Source of the DNA: an uncultured SAR86 cluster bacterium
Lineage (GTDB): Bacteria > Pseudomonadota > Gammaproteobacteria > Magnimaribacterales > D2472
DNA length: 64,000 nt
NCBI GenBank assembly: GCA_902626385.1
Contig: CACOEZ010000004.1
Coordinates: forward strand, 1 to 64,000
Reading direction: 5' to 3'
The position numbers and the translations under genes were made by a program. This document shows positions 2,213 through 13,287 of the stretch, in pieces; position 1 is the first letter of the stretch, and each line of letters opens with the position of its first letter. The notes under the pieces were generated by a model. It worked only from the letters and a program-made list of their open reading frames with translations. It was not told the origin of the DNA and did not search any database.

Positions 2213-2240
2213 TGTATTAGTCATTTAATTGGGGAATTTT

Positions 2241-4532
2241 ATGAATATATTTCATTTACAAAATGCACACAAAGCATTTAACACACTTACAAAAAAAACA
2301 ATATATGCATCTTCTATGATTTTAGCAGCTGTTGCATCAGCTCAGGAAAATGATCAAGTTGAAGAAGTAATAGTTACGGCACAAAAAAAATCTGAGAACT
2401 TGCAAGACGTTCCTATCAGTGTAACTAATCTTTCATCTGATGATCTTGAAAGTTTAAATATCAGAGATTTTTACGATTATGTAAATCAATTACCTTCTGT
2501 TCAGGCAATTCAAAGAAGACCAGGTGACGGTACTCTTTTTATGAGAGGTATTTCTGATGGTGGATCAGGTAATAATCAGTCGTTACAAGGATCCTCTGTA
2601 GCAACATATCTTGATGAAACTCCTGTAACTATGATCTCAGATAACTTAGAAGTTCATATGTATGATATCGAACGAGTTGAGGCATTGGCTGGTCCTCAAG
2701 GAACTCTATATGGTGCAGCATCTCAGGCAGGTAACTTGAAGATCATAACAAAAAAACCAACAGATGAATTTGATTCTGGTTTTAATGTTGGCATTGAAAG
2801 AACAACTAATGGAAGTCCAAGCAACATGGTTGAGGGATTTGTAAATATCCCACTTACTAAAAATGCTGCAGTAAGAATAGTTGGTTATGAAGATAAAGAT
2901 GGAGGTTATATTGACAATGTTCCCGATACATTAAGTTATCCATTATTTGGAAGTGTTACAAATGCAGATATGGTTGAAGAGGACTTCAATGAGTCTATTA
3001 AAGCAGGCTTTAGAGCAGCACTAAGAGTAAATCTTAGTGATTCTTGGTTACTCGATGCATCAGTTGTAGGACAAGAAATGGAGACTGATGGAATGTGGGA
3101 TCACGATCCAGATAGGCTTGGAAACTATAAAATTGGTCGTTTTACAGATGATTATCAAGATGATGACTTTACAAGATTTGCATTAACAGTTGAGGGCGAT
3201 CTTGGTTTCGCTGACCTAACATTTGCAACATCAAGCATGGAAAAAGATTTTGAATCAGTTTCAGACTATTCACATTACTCTCTTAGCTCAGCATATGTTG
3301 AAGCCTACTATACTTGTTACACATATTATTTTTATGCTTGTGTTGACCCAAGTATGAGTTTTGATAATGACTCTACCGTTGAAACAGACTCAACTGAAAT
3401 TAGATTATCTTCAAAAGATAACGCTAAACTAAATTGGATAATTGGATCTTTTGTTGGTGAACTTGAAACTGACTACAACACAAGATGGAGAGTAAAAGAT
3501 CTCCCAGCTGGTGCGACTGTTCCGACAAGTGAGAACGCTTACTATCAAACAGATCAGATCAGAGTAGATGAGGAGAAAGCAGTATTTGGAGAACTTTATT
3601 ATCAAATTTCTGATAAGTTAAATTTAACTGTTGGACATAGAAAATTTGATTATGACTCTAAATTAAATGGTTTTGTTGGCACTATTTTTTATAACCCAAA
3701 TCCAACTATGTCTGCAATAGGCGCTTTTGCAACTGATAGACCAGATAATATAGATGCAACTCTATCCGGAAGTGATAGCGTTACAAAAGTTAACTTATCT
3801 TATGATGTAAGTGATAAATCTATGGTATATGTTTCTAGATCAGAGGGGTATCGACCTGGAGGAACAAATAGATCTACTGAAGTTGGCGCTACTTATGATC
3901 CTGATTTTCTTACAATGACTGAGTTAGGTTTCAAGTCAATTGTTGCTGACGGAAGTCTAAGGCTAAACGGTGCTTTCTATTTATCTGAATGGGATGATAT
4001 TCAACTTGGTTTCTATGATCCAGCAATCTCTTTATTGGCTCTGGTCGATAATGTTGGAAAAGCTGAAAGTGATGGTTTTGAAATTGATGTCAAATATATT
4101 GCAAATGATAAACTTTCAATTTCTGGCGGTCTTGCTAAGAACGATGCAGAACTTCGTGAAGATTATTTTCTTCAAGGAACTCTTACAGGAAAGAAAGGGC
4201 AAGATTTACCATTAACACCTGACTTAAAATATAATTTTACAGTCAGATATGAACCAAATGAAAATAGATCAATTCAATTCAACTATGTCTATGTTGACGA
4301 AATGTGGAATGAGCTAGATATTAATAGCAGAGTACTGCAAGATAGTTATGGCCTAGCAAATTTATCATTTTCATTTGATGTAAATGACAGTTCTTCTGTT
4401 CAACTTTACATTGATAATGTTTTTGATGAAGTGGCTGAACTATACATTAATAATCAAGATGTATTAACGCTTACTAGTGTAAATAGACCAATGACACTAG
4501 GATTAAAATACACATGGAATTTAAAAAAGTAA
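2241..4532 (+). CDS. TonB-dependent outer membrane receptor (copy 1)
   Basis: A 763-residue receptor. The frame opens with a TTG at 2229, but the ATG at 2241 is preferred because TTGGGGAA lies 5-12 bases before it and a signal peptide ending near A-V-A-S-A-Q follows. The TonB box E-E-V-I-V-T-A is at about residues 41-47, followed by a plug domain (D-V-P-I-S-V, then R-P-G-D-G-T-L-F-M-R-G-I and G-P-Q-G-T-L-Y-G-A) and a 22-strand barrel ending in an aromatic-rich K-Y-T-W-N. It imports a scarce nutrient across the outer membrane using ExbBD energy. It is paralogous to the receptor at 10792. The loop encoded at about 3289-3350 is unusually Tyr-rich and bounded by Cys. A strong hairpin and a TPR-sulfotransferase gene follow. 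Confidence 0.93.
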   Translation: MNIFHLQNAHKAFNTLTKKTIYASSMILAAVASAQENDQVEEVIVTAQKKSENLQDVPISVTNLSSDDLESLNIRDFYDYVNQLPSVQAIQRRPGDGTLFMRGISDGGSGNNQSLQGSSVATYLDETPVTMISDNLEVHMYDIERVEALAGPQGTLYGAASQAGNLKIITKKPTDEFDSGFNVGIERTTNGSPSNMVEGFVNIPLTKNAAVRIVGYEDKDGGYIDNVPDTLSYPLFGSVTNADMVEEDFNESIKAGFRAALRVNLSDSWLLDASVVGQEMETDGMWDHDPDRLGNYKIGRFTDDYQDDDFTRFALTVEGDLGFADLTFATSSMEKDFESVSDYSHYSLSSAYVEAYYTCYTYYFYACVDPSMSFDNDSTVETDSTEIRLSSKDNAKLNWIIGSFVGELETDYNTRWRVKDLPAGATVPTSENAYYQTDQIRVDEEKAVFGELYYQISDKLNLTVGHRKFDYDSKLNGFVGTIFYNPNPTMSAIGAFATDRPDNIDATLSGSDSVTKVNLSYDVSDKSMVYVSRSEGYRPGGTNRSTEVGATYDPDFLTMTELGFKSIVADGSLRLNGAFYLSEWDDIQLGFYDPAISLLALVDNVGKAESDGFEIDVKYIANDKLSISGGLAKNDAELREDYFLQGTLTGKKGQDLPLTPDLKYNFTVRYEPNENRSIQFNYVYVDEMWNELDINSRVLQDSYGLANLSFSFDVNDSSSVQLYIDNVFDEVAELYINNQDVLTLTSVNRPMTLGLKYTWNLKK

Positions 4533-4581: not shown

Positions 4582-6153
4582 GTGAAAAAAAAAATTCCAA
4601 AGCAACTTTATGAAGCCTCTGTCCTAGTTGCATCTAATCAATTAAAAAAAGCTGAACCAATCTTAAAGGATTATTTAAAAGATAATCCTTTGGATGTTAA
4701 TGCTATGAAATTATTAGCAGACATCGGTATTAAATTCAGAGCATATTTTGATGCTGGAAACCTTTTAACAAGAGCACTTGATCTTGAACCGAACTTTCAT
4801 GCAGCAAGACTAAGCTACGCAAATCTTTTACATGCAAGGCAATTGCCATTTGAATCACTTAAGCAAATAGAAATATTGCTAGAAAATGATCCAAAAAATA
4901 TTCATTATTTAACATTAAAAGCTGTTAATTATGCCTTAGCAAATCAACATGATGATGCAATCTATTTATTCGAATTGATTGAAAAAAAATTTCCAGGAAA
5001 TAATCAATTATATCTTCATTATGGACACACGTTGAGGGCTGTTGGAAGAATTGAGGAAGCCATTAAGGCATATAAAAGATCAATAAAATTTGAGGTAAAT
5101 TATGGTGAGGCATATTGGGCTCTTGCAAACCTAAAAACTTATGAATTTAGTGAATCAGATAAACAAAATATTAATAAACTTCTTCATAACAAAAATATTT
5201 TAGTAAAAGATTACTATCATCTTCTTTTTGCTTTGGGAAAGGCCGAGGAAGACAAAAAAAATTACAAAAAATCAATAGCTGCTTATATGAAAGGCAATCA
5301 AGTAAAAAGTAATGAAGTGCAATGGAATATTGAAAACTTTCATAAAGAATGCAATGAAATAAAAGAATTCTTTACAAAAGAATTTTTTGAAAATAAGAAA
5401 GAATATGGATCAAAATTAGATGATGTAATTTTTGTGGTCGGTTTACCAAGATCGGGATCTACTTTAATTGAGCAAATCTTGTCTTCACATTCTTTGGTTG
5501 AAGGTACAACAGAACATCAAAATATCATTGCTCTTTCAAGAAAAATTTCAAAAAAAAGAAAAGCTTCAGATATATCTGAATATCCTCGTGCATTAGAAAA
5601 AATATCAAAAGAGGATATAAAACTTATGGGCGATCAATATTTAAACAATACATTAGATCAAAGAGTAACGGATAAGCCTTATTTTATTGATAAGATGCCT
5701 AATAATTTTATTCACATAGGCTTAATTCATCTTATTTTACCTAATGCAAAAATAATTGATGCAAGACGAAATCCAATGGATTGTTGCTTTAGTTGTTATA
5801 AACAATTGTTTGGATCTGGACAGGGTTTTACTTATAGCTTAAATAGAATAGGAAATTATTACCTTGAATATATTTCATTAATGAATCATTGGGACAAAGT
5901 TTTGCCTGGAGTAATCCATAGAGTAATTTATGAAGATATGATTAATGACACAGAAAATCAGATCAGAAAATTAATTGATTTTTGCAATCTTGAATTTGAA
6001 GATGATTGTTTAGAATTCTACAAAAATAAGCGTGCTGTAAGAACTCCAAGTTCAGAGCAAGTAAGACAACCTATATATAAAAAGGGAGTGGGTCAATGGA
6101 AGCATTTTGAGGAATGGCTTTCACCACTAAAACAGATACTTGGAGAAAAATAA
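4582..6153 (+). CDS. TPR-repeat sulfotransferase (copy 1)
   Basis: A 523-residue protein with no signal peptide, so probably cytoplasmic. Residues 1 to about 240 are TPR-like helical hairpins (A-x-x-L-L-A-x-x-G and Y-G-E-A-Y-W-A-L-A-N-L types). The C-terminal half is a PAPS-dependent sulfotransferase of the Sulfotransfer_3 type: the 5'-phosphosulfate loop P-R-S-G-S-T is at 289-294, and a 3'-phosphate site with I-D-A-R-R-N-P-M-D lies near 391-400. The C-terminus has the R-T-P-S-S-E-Q-V-R-Q-P-I-Y signature of this architecture. The GTG start is 8 bases after the terminator hairpin and has no clear ribosome site. The acceptor molecule is unknown; the TPRs suggest a protein or peptide. Confidence 0.88.
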   Translation: MKKKIPKQLYEASVLVASNQLKKAEPILKDYLKDNPLDVNAMKLLADIGIKFRAYFDAGNLLTRALDLEPNFHAARLSYANLLHARQLPFESLKQIEILLENDPKNIHYLTLKAVNYALANQHDDAIYLFELIEKKFPGNNQLYLHYGHTLRAVGRIEEAIKAYKRSIKFEVNYGEAYWALANLKTYEFSESDKQNINKLLHNKNILVKDYYHLLFALGKAEEDKKNYKKSIAAYMKGNQVKSNEVQWNIENFHKECNEIKEFFTKEFFENKKEYGSKLDDVIFVVGLPRSGSTLIEQILSSHSLVEGTTEHQNIIALSRKISKKRKASDISEYPRALEKISKEDIKLMGDQYLNNTLDQRVTDKPYFIDKMPNNFIHIGLIHLILPNAKIIDARRNPMDCCFSCYKQLFGSGQGFTYSLNRIGNYYLEYISLMNHWDKVLPGVIHRVIYEDMINDTENQIRKLIDFCNLEFEDDCLEFYKNKRAVRTPSSEQVRQPIYKKGVGQWKHFEEWLSPLKQILGEK

Positions 6154-6202
6154 AAACAGAATTTTTATCAACTTCCAAGTTAATCCTTTTTATATTTGTA
6201 AC

Positions 6203-6232
6203 TTTACAATCTTCTCTTAAAAGTTTTTAATA
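6203..6232 (+). promoter_or_regulatory. Possible promoter upstream of the SAM-II-like aptamer
   Basis: TTTACA at 6203-6208 and TTAATA at 6227-6232 with an 18-base spacer would start RNA near 6238, right at the first stem of the predicted aptamer. The match is weak and was chosen partly because of that fit. Confidence 0.35.
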
Positions 6233-6236
6233 TATT

Positions 6237-6302
6237 AATCGTGATTTGATCCTATTGCCGCGATTATAAAAAAAGAGCTAAAACGGAATTATTCCCAGGA
6301 TT
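6237..6302 (+). promoter_or_regulatory. SAM-II-like (SAM-alpha) riboswitch
   Basis: Stem P1 is AATCG (6237-6241) with CGATT (6261-6265). Its loop opens with the SAM-II hallmark GTGATTTG (6241-6248). The conserved GCTAAAACGG lies at 6277-6286. The pseudoknot can form between CCG (6258-6260) and CGG (6284-6286), and between ATCC (6249-6252) and GGAT near 6298-6301. SAM-II and SAM-V RNAs share this core and bind S-adenosylmethionine, usually lowering expression of methionine-pathway genes by hiding the ribosome site. The next gene is a homocysteine methyltransferase with an AAGGAG ribosome site at 6328-6333, which fits. SAM-II versus SAM-V cannot be settled by eye. Confidence 0.82.
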
Positions 6303-6341
6303 AAAAAATACTTTTAAATTTTTAAATAAGGAGAATGATAA

Positions 6342-7235
6342 ATGAAACCCCTGATTTTAGATTCAGCGCTCGGAACGGAGCTTGAAAACCGTGGAGAGTA
6401 CTTACCAAGTTTTAAAACCTCAATTTGGTCGGCCTATTCTTTGATACATAACCCGGAAGTCATCAAACAAATTCATATTGATAATATTGAGGCTGGCGCA
6501 GACATAATTACAACCTCAAATTATCAAGCAACACCGGAATTGCTCAAAAGAGAACCCTCAGCACCATCCTATGAGGACTTAGCAAAGATATCTCTAGAAC
6601 TTTGTCATGAGGCTGTAATAAAAACAAATAGCGATACTAAAATAGCTGGTTGTTTTCCACCCATCCATGTGACTTTTAGACCTGACCTTACACCAAAAGA
6701 AAAAGTTTTAAAAAAGTTTTATAAAGGTCTTGGAAAAATTTATCATAATAATGTTGATGTAATCATTTGTGAGACTATGTCCTCAATATATGAGGGTACT
6801 ATTGCAGCAACAACTGCAAAAGATTTTTCCAAAAAGGTCTGGTTAAGTTGGACTACCAGAGGTAATAAGTTAAATAGATTACCAAGCACTGAACTTCTTC
6901 ATGATGCCATATTGAAGTCAATAGATTTAGATATTGATTGTCAACTTGTAAATTGTGTTCATGCAGATACTGCAACTTTAGCTATTGATCGATTACAGAA
7001 AGAAAAAAGTTTTGGCATATATGCAAACTCCTCAATTTACAAGAAAAATGAATTAGAGGGCTTTATTAGTGATTCGGATGAATGGCATTATCACAACCAT
7101 CAGCATATAAACCCAGCTGAATATGGTCAGCATGTTAAAGAATGGATAAATAAAGGAGCTGCAGTTGTGGGAGGTTGTTGCAGAACAACCACTGACCATA
7201 TTAAAGTAATAAAAAAAATTATTGATAATTTATGA
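6342..7235 (+). CDS. mmuM: Homocysteine S-methyltransferase
   Basis: A 297-residue TIM-barrel enzyme of the family that methylates homocysteine to methionine using S-methylmethionine or another methyl donor. It starts with the family motif I-L-D-S-A-L-G-T-E-L and has A-D-I-I-T-T-S-N-Y near 54-61. The three zinc-binding Cys are visible: Cys205 in L-V-N-C-V-H, and Cys279-Cys280 in G-G-C-C-R-T-T. The ATG follows AAGGAG by 8 bases. It lies directly behind a SAM-II-like riboswitch, so it should be turned down when SAM is plentiful. The next gene overlaps by 4 bases. The symbol is assigned by family; the methyl donor in this organism is not known. Confidence 0.9.
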   Translation: MKPLILDSALGTELENRGEYLPSFKTSIWSAYSLIHNPEVIKQIHIDNIEAGADIITTSNYQATPELLKREPSAPSYEDLAKISLELCHEAVIKTNSDTKIAGCFPPIHVTFRPDLTPKEKVLKKFYKGLGKIYHNNVDVIICETMSSIYEGTIAATTAKDFSKKVWLSWTTRGNKLNRLPSTELLHDAILKSIDLDIDCQLVNCVHADTATLAIDRLQKEKSFGIYANSSIYKKNELEGFISDSDEWHYHNHQHINPAEYGQHVKEWINKGAAVVGGCCRTTTDHIKVIKKIIDNL

Positions 7236-7930
7236 GACAGATAATTGCTATTGGAGGCGGTGGATTCGGGAGAGAAATTAAAAATCTTAAAATAGAAAAA
7301 TATATTGTTAATCAAAGTCCTAAAAATAACCCTAAAATATGTTTTATTCCAACTGCAACTGGCGATGATCAAGGATACATTGAAAACTTCTATAAAGCAT
7401 TTGATTCACTTGGATGCAAAACCTCTCACATAGACTTTTTTAAAAGAACAATAAATTTACATGAACATATCAATCATCAAGATATAATTTTTGTTGGCGG
7501 TGGCAATACAAAAAGTATGCTAGCTGTTTGGAGAGAGTGGGGGCTTGACCAAATTTTGCTAGATGCTTACAAAAAGGGCGTAATTATGAGTGGTGTAAGC
7601 GCTGGAGCAATCTGTTGGTTTGAGAAAGGTATAACAGATTCTTGGAAAGAACATCAAGCTATTTTACCTTGCCTTGGTTTTGTTAAGGGGATATGTTGTC
7701 CCCATTATGATGAAGAGCCAGAGCGAATACCATTTGTTAATGAAATATTAAATCAGAATAAGATTAAAAGATGCATCGCTATTGAGGGTTATTGCGCACT
7801 TCATTTAATTAATGATGAGCCAAAGTATTCAGTTAGTTTTGGTGATGGTAATAATTGTTACTTAGTTAGCAAAAAGAATTCTATAATAGAAACTAATCAA
7901 ATTGAAAATATAGGTCTAATTCAAATATGA
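7232..7930 (+). CDS. Peptidase S51 family (dipeptidase E / cyanophycinase-like)
   Basis: A 232-residue protein that opens I-I-A-I-G-G-G-G-F-G. It has the nucleophile elbow G-V-S-A-G-A with Ser123 and a conserved C-P-H-Y segment with His158, matching the S51 class-I-amidotransferase-like fold. PepE-type members cleave Asp-containing dipeptides; other members have unknown targets. The ATGA overlap with mmuM and another with the gene after it put it in the riboswitch-led operon. No signal peptide, so it is cytoplasmic. Confidence 0.85.
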   Translation: MRQIIAIGGGGFGREIKNLKIEKYIVNQSPKNNPKICFIPTATGDDQGYIENFYKAFDSLGCKTSHIDFFKRTINLHEHINHQDIIFVGGGNTKSMLAVWREWGLDQILLDAYKKGVIMSGVSAGAICWFEKGITDSWKEHQAILPCLGFVKGICCPHYDEEPERIPFVNEILNQNKIKRCIAIEGYCALHLINDEPKYSVSFGDGNNCYLVSKKNSIIETNQIENIGLIQI

Positions 7931-8301
7931 AAATAGCAAACACATTGTCGCTTATCTTAGGATCAGTTTTATTAATAATATCATTTCAATGGATTTTCAT
8001 ACCGGCCTCAGCTGCTGAATCTTTGAATATGATTTTTCTTGATGGAGAAGGGAGGAACACTCAAATCAGAGACTTTACAGCACTGTTTTTAGGAACATCA
8101 AGTTTATGCTTTCTATCATTTTTTACTAAAAAATATGAATTCATTTTTAGTTGCGGCTTGTTTTATTTGTTTGCTGCGATATTTAATATCCTTTCTACTA
8201 ACCACGGCGCAATAATTACCTATTCTTCTTTGGTTTCAGAGGTCGTTTTTACTTTAATGGCTTTTACGGCTGCTTTTCTATATAAGTCTAATAATCTATA
8301 A
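7927..8301 (+). CDS. Small four-helix membrane protein (DUF4345-like)
   Basis: A 124-residue protein with about four hydrophobic helices (near residues 5-25, 50-65, 72-90 and 98-117) and a short loop rich in G-x-G-R-N-x-x-I-R-D-F between the first two. The pattern resembles DUF4345-type inner membrane proteins of unknown function, but that assignment is from memory of the pattern. It overlaps the S51 peptidase gene by 4 bases and its stop overlaps the convergent nitroreductase gene by 6 bases. Confidence 0.65.
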   Translation: MKIANTLSLILGSVLLIISFQWIFIPASAAESLNMIFLDGEGRNTQIRDFTALFLGTSSLCFLSFFTKKYEFIFSCGLFYLFAAIFNILSTNHGAIITYSSLVSEVVFTLMAFTAAFLYKSNNL

Positions 8302-10748: not shown

Positions 10749-10791
10749 TTGTTTATTTTGCAATTTATATAAACTAACTATGAGGATTCAT

Positions 10792-13287
10792 ATGTTTAAT
10801 TTAATTAAAACAAAAGAACAATTAAATAATTTAAAAAATAAGGTTTCTTTAGGCGTTTTGGGTGCAGTAGCTGCGATGATACCGCAGACAGCTGAAGCAC
10901 AAGACAGACAAATTGAAGAAGTTGTTGTTTCTGCTACTAAAAAAGATGAAACAGCTTCCAAGATCCCTGTCACTGTTACAGCTCTAACAGAAGAAACTTT
11001 AAAAGAGTTGAACGTTTCAAACTTTGATGAATACGTTGAATACCTTCCAAATGTAACAAGTGGTGGACGGGGACCCGGTCAATCTACTATATACATTAGA
11101 GGTTTAGCGGTAGACTCAGTTAACGTTATGCTTGCAACAGCAGCTGGTTCTCAACCTAATGTTGCTCTGTACATCGATGAACAGCCTGCACAAGTGCCAG
11201 GTAGAAACCTTGATGTTTATGTTGCAGATATGGAAAGGGTTGAAGTACTTCCTGGACCTCAAGGAACTCTATTTGGAGCAAGTTCACAAGCAGGTACTAT
11301 CAGATTAATCACTAACAAACCAAAGTTTGGTGTTACAGAAGGTGGATTTAATACATCTACATATGCAACTTATAGTGGTGACCCAAGTAACTCTCTTGAT
11401 GCTTTTATAAATATACCCATTAATGATGCCTGGTCAATTAGAGGTGTTTTTTATAACTCAACTCAAGGAGGTTATATTGATAATGTTGGAGGAACAGTTT
11501 CTTCTCAAGGAAAAGGTTCGTTTGCTTCATTAGTTCCAGCTGGTAGATTTAAAACAACAGACAATGCTGAATTAGTTAAAAAGAATTTTAACGAAGCAAG
11601 ATATGAAGGATTTAGACTATCATCAAGAATGTCATTCAATGACAACTGGGAGCTCTTAGTTTCCCATATTGATCAATCACTTGAATCTGATGGTGTATGG
11701 GATTATGACCCAGCTGTTGGTGATCTCGAAGTAAAAAGATTTCAGCCTGACACATTAGATGATTCATTTGATCAAACAGCTATTACTCTTGATGGAAGAA
11801 TGGGTATGTTAGATGTTCTATATACCGGATCATTCTTAAATAGAGAGGCTAATCAAACTGTAGACTACACTGGTTATATTAATACCGGTGCATATATGCC
11901 TTACTATACTTGTGCTTATTGGGGTGCTCAACTTGCAAATGCAGGTGGTATACCAACTTGTGGAAGCTCAGAAGTAAGAGTAGATGTAGTTGATGAGAAC
12001 GAAAGAACAACTCATGAATTCAGAGTTAGCTCAAATGAAATGAGCGAACTTCCATTCTCATTCACTGCTGGTATGTTTATAGAAGAAAGTATCCTAGACA
12101 CACAAAATGATTTTGGATATTTAGGCTTCTTAGATTTAATACCTCTTTTAGGTTACGCAGTTCCAAATAATAAAATTATTTCAGGAGTGTATGCAAATAA
12201 CCCAAATCCAAGAGCACCTGAATATAGGTTCTTTAATGATATTACAAGAACCGATGAACAGATCGCTTACTTTGCTGAGGTTACATTCCCAGTAAATGAT
12301 CAATTAGATTTCACTCTAGGTTTTAGAGACTACGAACTCGATCTTGATTATGTGGGACAATCTAAATTTGGTTTATTAACAAGCGATTCACAATCTGGTC
12401 GTGACTATAACAGTACCGCTGGTCATACTGATCAACCTATAACAGAGGAAGACACTATTACTAAATTTACTGTTAGTTACAAAAAAGATGAAGATACATT
12501 ATGGTATTTCACTAGATCAGAGGGTTACAGACCTGGTGGTTGGAACAGAAACGCTGGTGTTACTCCTAAATGTAGAGGTTATGATGCTTCGGATCCTAAC
12601 TATTGTGGAGGAGCTCCTGGTGACGGAACTTACAGAGCCGATATTCCATTAGCATATAAGTCCGATAATGTTTACAACACTGAATTAGGTCTTAAAACAC
12701 TCCTAATGGATGGAGCAATGAGATTAAATGCCACTTTCTACAGAATTGACTGGGAAGGAATTCAGGTATCTCAGTTTGATCCAGTCCATGTTAACTTCAT
12801 TACCTTTGTTGAAAATGCAGCTGATGCTGAAATTGAAGGTCTTGAAGCAGATGTTCTATGGTATCCAAGTGATACTCTAACTGTTGCTGCTGCAATGTCA
12901 TACAACGACACAGAAATTGTCAAAGACGTTGCTAAGACGATTCCTATTGTTGATATCGGTAATGCTTTACCTTTAGCACCAAAAAGACAATGGAATGTAA
13001 GAGTTAGAAAAGACCTAGCTATGAATGACAGCTATTTCCAAGTTGCATTTAAGAGTTCTTCAAAAACATACAATTCATTTGAAGCAGCTAAAGTTAAAGA
13101 TCAACCTTCGTACGAAATAGTTGATCTTGCTTATGGCATGACTTTAAACGATGTTGATGTTGAATTCTTCATAAGAAATGCTACTGACGAAAGGGCAAAT
13201 CTATATTTCAATGATCAGGATGATATTCCTAGAATAACAACCAATAGACCAAGAAATATGGGTGTTAGACTATCTTATAGATTCTAA
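10792..13287 (+). CDS. TonB-dependent outer membrane receptor (copy 2)
   Basis: An 831-residue receptor, paralogous to the one at 2241. The ATG at 10792 is preferred over the in-frame ATG at 10780 because TGAGGA lies just before it. A signal peptide ends near T-A-E-A-Q; the TonB box E-E-V-V-V-S-A is at about 42-48. The plug shows G-R-G-P-G-Q-S-T-I-Y-I-R-G-L and G-P-Q-G-T-L-F-G-A; the barrel ends in L-S-Y-R-F. The shared block W-D-Y-D-P then K-R-F and D-D-x-F ties it to copy 1. The loop encoded at about 11881-11967 is Tyr-rich between two Cys, as in copy 1. It is followed by a hairpin and a TPR-sulfotransferase gene, repeating the cassette. Confidence 0.94.
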   Translation: MFNLIKTKEQLNNLKNKVSLGVLGAVAAMIPQTAEAQDRQIEEVVVSATKKDETASKIPVTVTALTEETLKELNVSNFDEYVEYLPNVTSGGRGPGQSTIYIRGLAVDSVNVMLATAAGSQPNVALYIDEQPAQVPGRNLDVYVADMERVEVLPGPQGTLFGASSQAGTIRLITNKPKFGVTEGGFNTSTYATYSGDPSNSLDAFINIPINDAWSIRGVFYNSTQGGYIDNVGGTVSSQGKGSFASLVPAGRFKTTDNAELVKKNFNEARYEGFRLSSRMSFNDNWELLVSHIDQSLESDGVWDYDPAVGDLEVKRFQPDTLDDSFDQTAITLDGRMGMLDVLYTGSFLNREANQTVDYTGYINTGAYMPYYTCAYWGAQLANAGGIPTCGSSEVRVDVVDENERTTHEFRVSSNEMSELPFSFTAGMFIEESILDTQNDFGYLGFLDLIPLLGYAVPNNKIISGVYANNPNPRAPEYRFFNDITRTDEQIAYFAEVTFPVNDQLDFTLGFRDYELDLDYVGQSKFGLLTSDSQSGRDYNSTAGHTDQPITEEDTITKFTVSYKKDEDTLWYFTRSEGYRPGGWNRNAGVTPKCRGYDASDPNYCGGAPGDGTYRADIPLAYKSDNVYNTELGLKTLLMDGAMRLNATFYRIDWEGIQVSQFDPVHVNFITFVENAADAEIEGLEADVLWYPSDTLTVAAAMSYNDTEIVKDVAKTIPIVDIGNALPLAPKRQWNVRVRKDLAMNDSYFQVAFKSSSKTYNSFEAAKVKDQPSYEIVDLAYGMTLNDVDVEFFIRNATDERANLYFNDQDDIPRITTNRPRNMGVRLSYRF

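Follow-up and report, generated by a model that had tools for sequence, protein, structure and literature searches.

A divergent SAM-II-type aptamer directly upstream of an mmuM-like homocysteine S-methyltransferase gene in SAR86

SAM-II represses translation at Sinorhizobium meliloti metA by sequestration of the Shine-Dalgarno sequence, according to the accessible part of PMC9373788. Among about 200 proteobacterial genomes surveyed, Rhizobiales and Rhodobacterales were the only groups with SAM_alpha, as stated in the available text of PMC4239095. In Pelagibacter, the accessible portions of PMC5069961 and PMC2704228 describe SAM-V before mmuM, bhmT, and metY and an arrangement of SAM-II plus SAM-V before bhmT. 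Seven tandems of SAM-II with SAM-I/IV have already been reported (PMC9481103, in its accessible part). A limited literature check returned nothing on SAM riboswitches of SAR86, nor on a SAR86 SAM-II element 5′ of mmuM with the 3′ tail described below; for SAM-II together with mmuM, it returned the Pelagibacter work only.

The marine SAR86 lineage is abundant and for the most part uncultured. In a 64,000-nt stretch of a SAR86 contig (here, the window), comparative evidence supports a SAM-II-type aptamer at positions 6236 to 6302, directly 5′ of a gene for an mmuM-like homocysteine S-methyltransferase, and further supports its placement as a divergent SAM-II variant of SAR86 rather than a plain match to family RF00521. 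The earlier note on this DNA had proposed a check with the SAM-II and SAM-V covariance models, and that check favored SAM-II, with both SAM-II scores below their cutoffs. In an Rfam search of positions 6140 to 6420 (281 nt; E ≤ 10), the SAM_alpha model RF00521 matched end to end (model positions 1 to 79) with 31.3 bits and an E value of 1.5e-5 (1.4e-5 when scored across the window's whole genome), falling short of the gathering cutoff of 36 bits, and the SAM-II long-loop model RF01726 gave 23.9 bits versus a cutoff of 44 (E = 0.016). SAM-V was absent among the five Rfam matches, which sets the element apart from the Pelagibacter system; what the two probably have in common is that an oligotrophic marine bacterium senses SAM at mmuM and bhmT (for Pelagibacter, PMC5069961 and PMC2704228, accessible portions). 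At gathering thresholds, Rfam returned only tRNA from the whole window, because 31.3 bits is less than the curated cutoff. Since a gathering score is a curator's threshold and not a structural trait, we file the element as a SAM-II variant. It resembles RF00521 and RF01726 in the order of P1, the GAUUUG of L1, UUGC, an A-rich L3, and GCUAA-NNN-GG and in its position before a methionine gene, but it differs from them in its sub-cutoff scores, a short P2a contact, and a tail of the form CGGAA-loop-UUCC(CA)GGAUU. We call this SAR86 subtype type B and the canonical SAR86 SAM-II type A. Type A elements, which precede metY-like and metX-like genes, have the same core order; however, they are followed by a hairpin and a U-run and, by eye, lack the GGAA/UUCC/GGAUU tail.

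From 5′ to 3′ on the plus strand, the leader contains the P1 5′ arm, GAUUUG, CC, UUGC, the P1 3′ arm, an A-rich loop, and GCUAAAACGG. The P1 5′ arm UAAUCGUG (6236 to 6243) pairs in the predicted fold with the 3′ arm CGCGAUUA (6259 to 6266). GAUUUG lies at 6243 to 6248, and L1, AUUUGAU, occupies 6244 to 6250 when aligned to the SAM_alpha consensus; its U residues are expected to line the SAM pocket, by analogy with contacts described in the accessible part of PMC11508383. The P2 5′ strand (6251 to 6258), conserved in 46 type B copies, consists of CC (6251 to 6252), UA, and UUGC (6255 to 6258). L3, identified from the sequence and from comparison of copies, spans 6267 to 6276, and the P2 3′ strand and pocket, GCUAA-AAC-GG (6277 to 6286), comprise GCUAA at 6277 to 6281 and GG at 6285 to 6286. 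The ordered pattern GATTTG-TTGC-GCTAAA has a single match in the window (6243 to 6282), with 0.02 expected and at least one match in 2 of 100 shuffles.

The P1 helix is backed by covariation. Across 35 distinct copies, 233 of 280 P1 cells were paired (83%, versus 19 to 44% in slid registers), a count reached by none of 500 partner shuffles (maximum, 228). At pair 6, A-U is replaced by U-A in six copies and by G-C in one. The pseudoknot strands UUGC:GCUAA and CC:GG (2 to 3 bp) are present and invariant across copies, and covariation therefore cannot speak to them; GCUAA, 3 nt, and GG recur in 45 of the 46 type B copies, with the same spacing in canonical SAR86 copies 5′ of metY-like genes. Thus, the P1 stem and ordered motifs named in the earlier note stand, while its complete pseudoknot is narrowed to UUGC:GCUAA and the short CC:GG contact, for which the tail offers competing partners.

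With a cutoff of E ≤ 1e-6, a model built from five orthologous mmuM leaders only (R1) matched 75 sites, spread over 61 of 203 SAR86-order genomes. Within family f1 it gave 46 matches at ≥56 bits, a set that excludes seven matches below 41 bits (the second match in L147 and L155 to L160). None of 14 Rfam rows above cutoff coincided with a type B site. Gene context was counted for 74 of the 75 matches (the second match in G074:C59, at 40.2 bits, was omitted), and all 74 copies lie on the coding strand just 5′ of a gene. Classes were assigned by tblastn with eleven reference proteins that come from these very loci, which means that each class matches its own reference. The genes include homocysteine methyltransferases in 40 cases (29 bhmT-like, 6 metH, and 5 mmuM), a FA_desaturase/AlkB-like gene in 13 (six of them from three tandems), TonB receptors of two kinds in 11 (8 and 3), and others in the remaining 10 (4 lipoprotein genes and six more); the metH and TonB receptor labels are readings of the sequences. 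The bhmT-like protein and mmuM both belong to PF02574. Since R1 derives from mmuM leaders alone, its link to other methionine genes is independent support. Comparison across copies thus establishes a conserved aptamer, P1 covariation, gene association, and tail conservation as features of the sequences, and the SAM-II-like riboswitch that had been proposed on an mmuM-type gene is borne out by the RF00521 match together with the order-wide copies, their P1 covariation, and their gene association. If this is correct, a SAM-II subtype missed by the curated Rfam threshold controls methionine synthesis in SAR86 in 61 of 203 genomes.

Beyond the SAR86 order, R1 was run on 369 genomes of the class and 398 of the phylum under stricter filters, with which weak matches can be lost, and yielded three weak matches. 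We rejected all three as type B: L198 on reading resembles canonical SAM-II, and L197 and L199 look like noise. Among the genomes sampled, the 3′ tail CGGAA-loop-UUCC(CA)GGAUU was strong only in SAR86. Viral contigs contained no relative of the mmuM-like protein and no exact motif, none was found in phages, and plasmids gave none at E ≤ 1e-40.

The mmuM-like gene is present in 36 of 107 family genomes (protein search, E ≤ 1e-60), but within the window's genus just 3 of 34 genomes have it, one of them being the window's own. Among 29 close orthologues (L006 to L008 and L028 to L053), five carry the SAM-II element (L006, L007, L008, L028, and L029), seven carry SAM-I/IV in the same place (L033, L042, L044, L046, L047, L048, and L049, the last being also G096 and L075), with 59 to 71 bits versus a cutoff of 41.1, and 17 have neither SAM element in leaders of ~190 nt each. 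SAM-I/IV (RF01725) resembles the window element in preceding orthologous mmuM genes of other SAR86 genomes but belongs to a different Rfam family with a different fold, and none was found in the window's genome. Since this unrelated riboswitch sits on orthologues, SAM sensing on the mmuM gene is supported independently. The occurrence of SAM-II, SAM-I/IV, or neither implies that different lines acquired SAM control of mmuM by way of two unrelated RNAs or else lost it; the same gene under one of two unrelated SAM riboswitches, depending on the species, would be a clear case of regulatory replacement. In 27 named mmuM loci (orthologues at 75 to 94% identity), R1 applied up to 4 kb upstream found four mmuM leaders only, plus an element in L067; Rfam at gathering thresholds found a single SAM-I/IV among 15 of the 27, and Rfam at E ≤ 0.5 found no match in 7 of them. 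The L067 element lies ~2.7 kb downstream of mmuM.

After GCUAA-NNN-GG, type B copies continue with CGGAA, a variable loop, UUCC, and usually GGAUU. The tail hairpin of the window, P3 (GGAA-UUA-UUCC; 6285 to 6295, plus strand), overlaps the GG of P2; since GGAA:UUCC and the pseudoknot CC:GG share the same GG, they are mutually exclusive. Longer tail stems with changed pairs occur in L224, L225, L206, and L213. The mean tail stem is 4.2 bp versus 3.6 bp in shuffles, and 42 of 63 distinct tails have a stem longer than their shuffles average, which is a modest excess. The conserved GGAUU (6298 to 6302, plus strand) can pair with AUCC (6249 to 6252), the other pseudoknot half, and is therefore a competing partner; its position was chosen by pattern, and by hand for L147 and L153. 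A more far-reaching view, somewhat less likely than not, is that these features form a SAM-II architecture evolved by SAR86 itself, in which both P2a halves have conserved competitors. Its SAM regulon would then extend past methionine synthesis and take in TonB receptors, a membrane enzyme of the AlkB/desaturase-like kind, and a lipoprotein that looks secreted, marking these as functions in methyl-group or organosulfur acquisition.

The same tail features bear on what the element is. If the tail belonged to the aptamer, P3 would be an insertion between P2b and P2a, and P2a would form between AUCC and the distal GGAUU. We regard this as rather unlikely, although the tail is conserved while its distance to the start codon ranges from 18 to 220 nt (a wide spread if it were an expression platform), L147 has AUCU:AGAU in place of AUCC:GGAU with both sides changed, and L153 lacks the hairpin segment alone, retaining GAUU beside GCUAAAA. 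Against these stand the GG at canonical spacing from GCUAA, kept in all but one of the 46 copies, the broken AUCC:GGAUU pairing in L139 and L143, and the GCUUUG copies 5′ of one kind of TonB receptor, most of which are without a clear distal GGAUU. A different but related ligand, such as SAH, is improbable: type B also occurs on genes outside methionine synthesis (TonB receptors, AlkB-like, and lipoprotein genes), as such a ligand might allow, but the SAM-contact residues named in the accessible part of PMC11508383 have counterparts in the core, and orthologous genes carry SAM-I/IV. Least probable of all is a degenerate SAM-II remnant that has lost SAM binding. Its sub-cutoff Rfam score and a whole-leader fold that includes P1 but is no stabler than shuffles (z = −0.45) would suit decay, yet five orthologous leaders, with genes 86 to 100% identical to the window's, differ in their flanks and hardly at all in the core, and the P1 changes are compensatory.

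We therefore return to the SAM-II-type riboswitch, in its SAR86 subtype, and we consider it probable that its SAM-bound pseudoknot turns off mmuM translation via the Shine-Dalgarno sequence. A promoter-like element on the plus strand (TTTACA at 6203 to 6208, 17 nt, and TTTAAT at 6226 to 6231) predicts a start at or just before P1; its hexamers are invariant in all five mmuM leaders, with the −10 ending 3 to 4 nt before P1. A stock promoter scanner did not report this element because its rule for the −10 requires A as the second base. A candidate anti-Shine-Dalgarno strand, AUUAUUCCC (6288 to 6296, plus strand), forms nine pairs with positions 6330 to 6339 in the predicted fold of the window leader, over the region of the Shine-Dalgarno AAGGAG (6328 to 6333, plus strand), and comparable pairing is predicted in two further mmuM leaders. 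This pairing, with no terminator-like site in 6100 to 6400, favors translational repression. Transcriptional control through an unrecognized or Rho-dependent terminator appears unlikely; canonical SAR86 SAM-II copies are, by eye, followed by a hairpin and a U-run, as it would have it, but the lack of a terminator-like site in the stretch around the window leader argues against it.

What we infer for the type B element is that it binds SAM, that SAM turns expression off, and that control acts at translation, in the following steps. Transcription would start at P1, which would form in the nascent RNA. With SAM plentiful, the pseudoknot would pair UUGC with GCUAA and CC with GG, bringing U6279 and the uridines of L1 to the ligand, and by occupying G6285 and G6286 it would block the hairpin GGAA:UUCC (6285 to 6295). 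Without the hairpin, AUUAUUCCC would be free to pair with 6330 to 6339, leaving mmuM and the coupled genes untranslated. With SAM scarce, the hairpin would take UUCC, the Shine-Dalgarno sequence would be exposed, and homocysteine would be converted to methionine. When the pseudoknot strands were masked, nested folding did not show this switch: across 39 of the 46 leaders (7 were skipped for a start codon >110 nt away or an unclassified gene), mean Shine-Dalgarno accessibility changed by only −0.04 and went down in 24 of 39, and in the five mmuM leaders the Shine-Dalgarno sequence was mostly paired in both folding states. Equilibrium nested folding is blind to co-transcriptional and pseudoknot switches, and we therefore keep this step at the level of inference.

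The gene under the riboswitch (6342 to 7235, plus strand, ATG at 6342) encodes a 297-aa protein that matches Pfam PF02574 (E = 5.6e-50), and its mmuM identity holds at the family level. Among NCBIfam models, the MmuM equivalog PRK09485 scores highest, at 134.8 bits versus a cutoff of 215; because the methyl donor may differ at such a score, we use the label mmuM-like. The best solved structure is 5dml, a homocysteine S-methyltransferase (E = 3.4e-23), to which the NC and GGCC cysteines align; we take these to be the zinc cysteines. Two genes follow on the plus strand, each with a 4-nt ATGA overlap with the gene before it: a peptidase S51-family gene (7232 to 7930, 232 aa) and a gene for a membrane-like protein of 124 aa (7927 to 8301). 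Given these overlaps, the three genes are probably co-transcribed here. The S51 peptidase of the earlier note is upheld by PF03575 (E = 6.1e-52). The DUF4345-like label for the 124-aa protein fared less well: the window protein has no match to PF14248 at E ≤ 10, and 3 of 10 homologues match weakly (best E = 0.07).

The note had also placed both downstream genes under SAM control. A shared mRNA is probable at this locus; a conserved SAM-controlled unit is not borne out. Of the 27 named loci, 13 have the S51 gene downstream of mmuM and 11 have the gene for the 124-aa protein. Two of the five SAM-II mmuM loci, L057 and L058, have the same riboswitch and neither gene, and at some mmuM loci that do carry S51, L059, L062, and L065 among them, R1 and Rfam detected no SAM riboswitch. 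The S51 and 124-aa genes therefore look like passengers here and not conserved SAM targets.

Type B copies elsewhere in SAR86 sit in varied settings. In L135, L140, and L142, two copies in a row, ~110 nt apart, lie 5′ of a 383-aa membrane protein, a relative of which, in L095, matches Pfam FA_desaturase. Copies 5′ of TonB-dependent receptors (L136, L141, L146, L202, and L220 to L226) suggest SAM-controlled uptake; most of those in L220 to L226 have C replacing A of GAUUUG and are without a clear GGAUU. If the type B reading is right, it also offers a lead, open to test, on what the TonB receptors and the AlkB-like enzyme do. In L200, L207, L208, and L213, type B precedes a lipoprotein-like protein of 564 to 577 aa; at E ≤ 0.001, the L200 member matches nothing in Pfam. 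The copy in L153, which is without the tail hairpin, precedes a gene that is presumably fatty-acid-hydroxylase-like. In eight SAR86 genomes (L177 to L184), a tandem of SAM-II followed by SAM-I/IV on one strand lies 5′ of a 205- to 217-aa protein. Within the window, a TPR and sulfotransferase-family protein (4582 to 6153) is encoded directly upstream of the leader, TonB-receptor-like open reading frames, named from sequence, flank the region on each side (2229 to 4532 and 10780 to 13287), and a BCCT-family betaine/carnitine/choline transporter gene (PF02028; 9056 to 10546, minus strand) lies near the methyltransferase operon.
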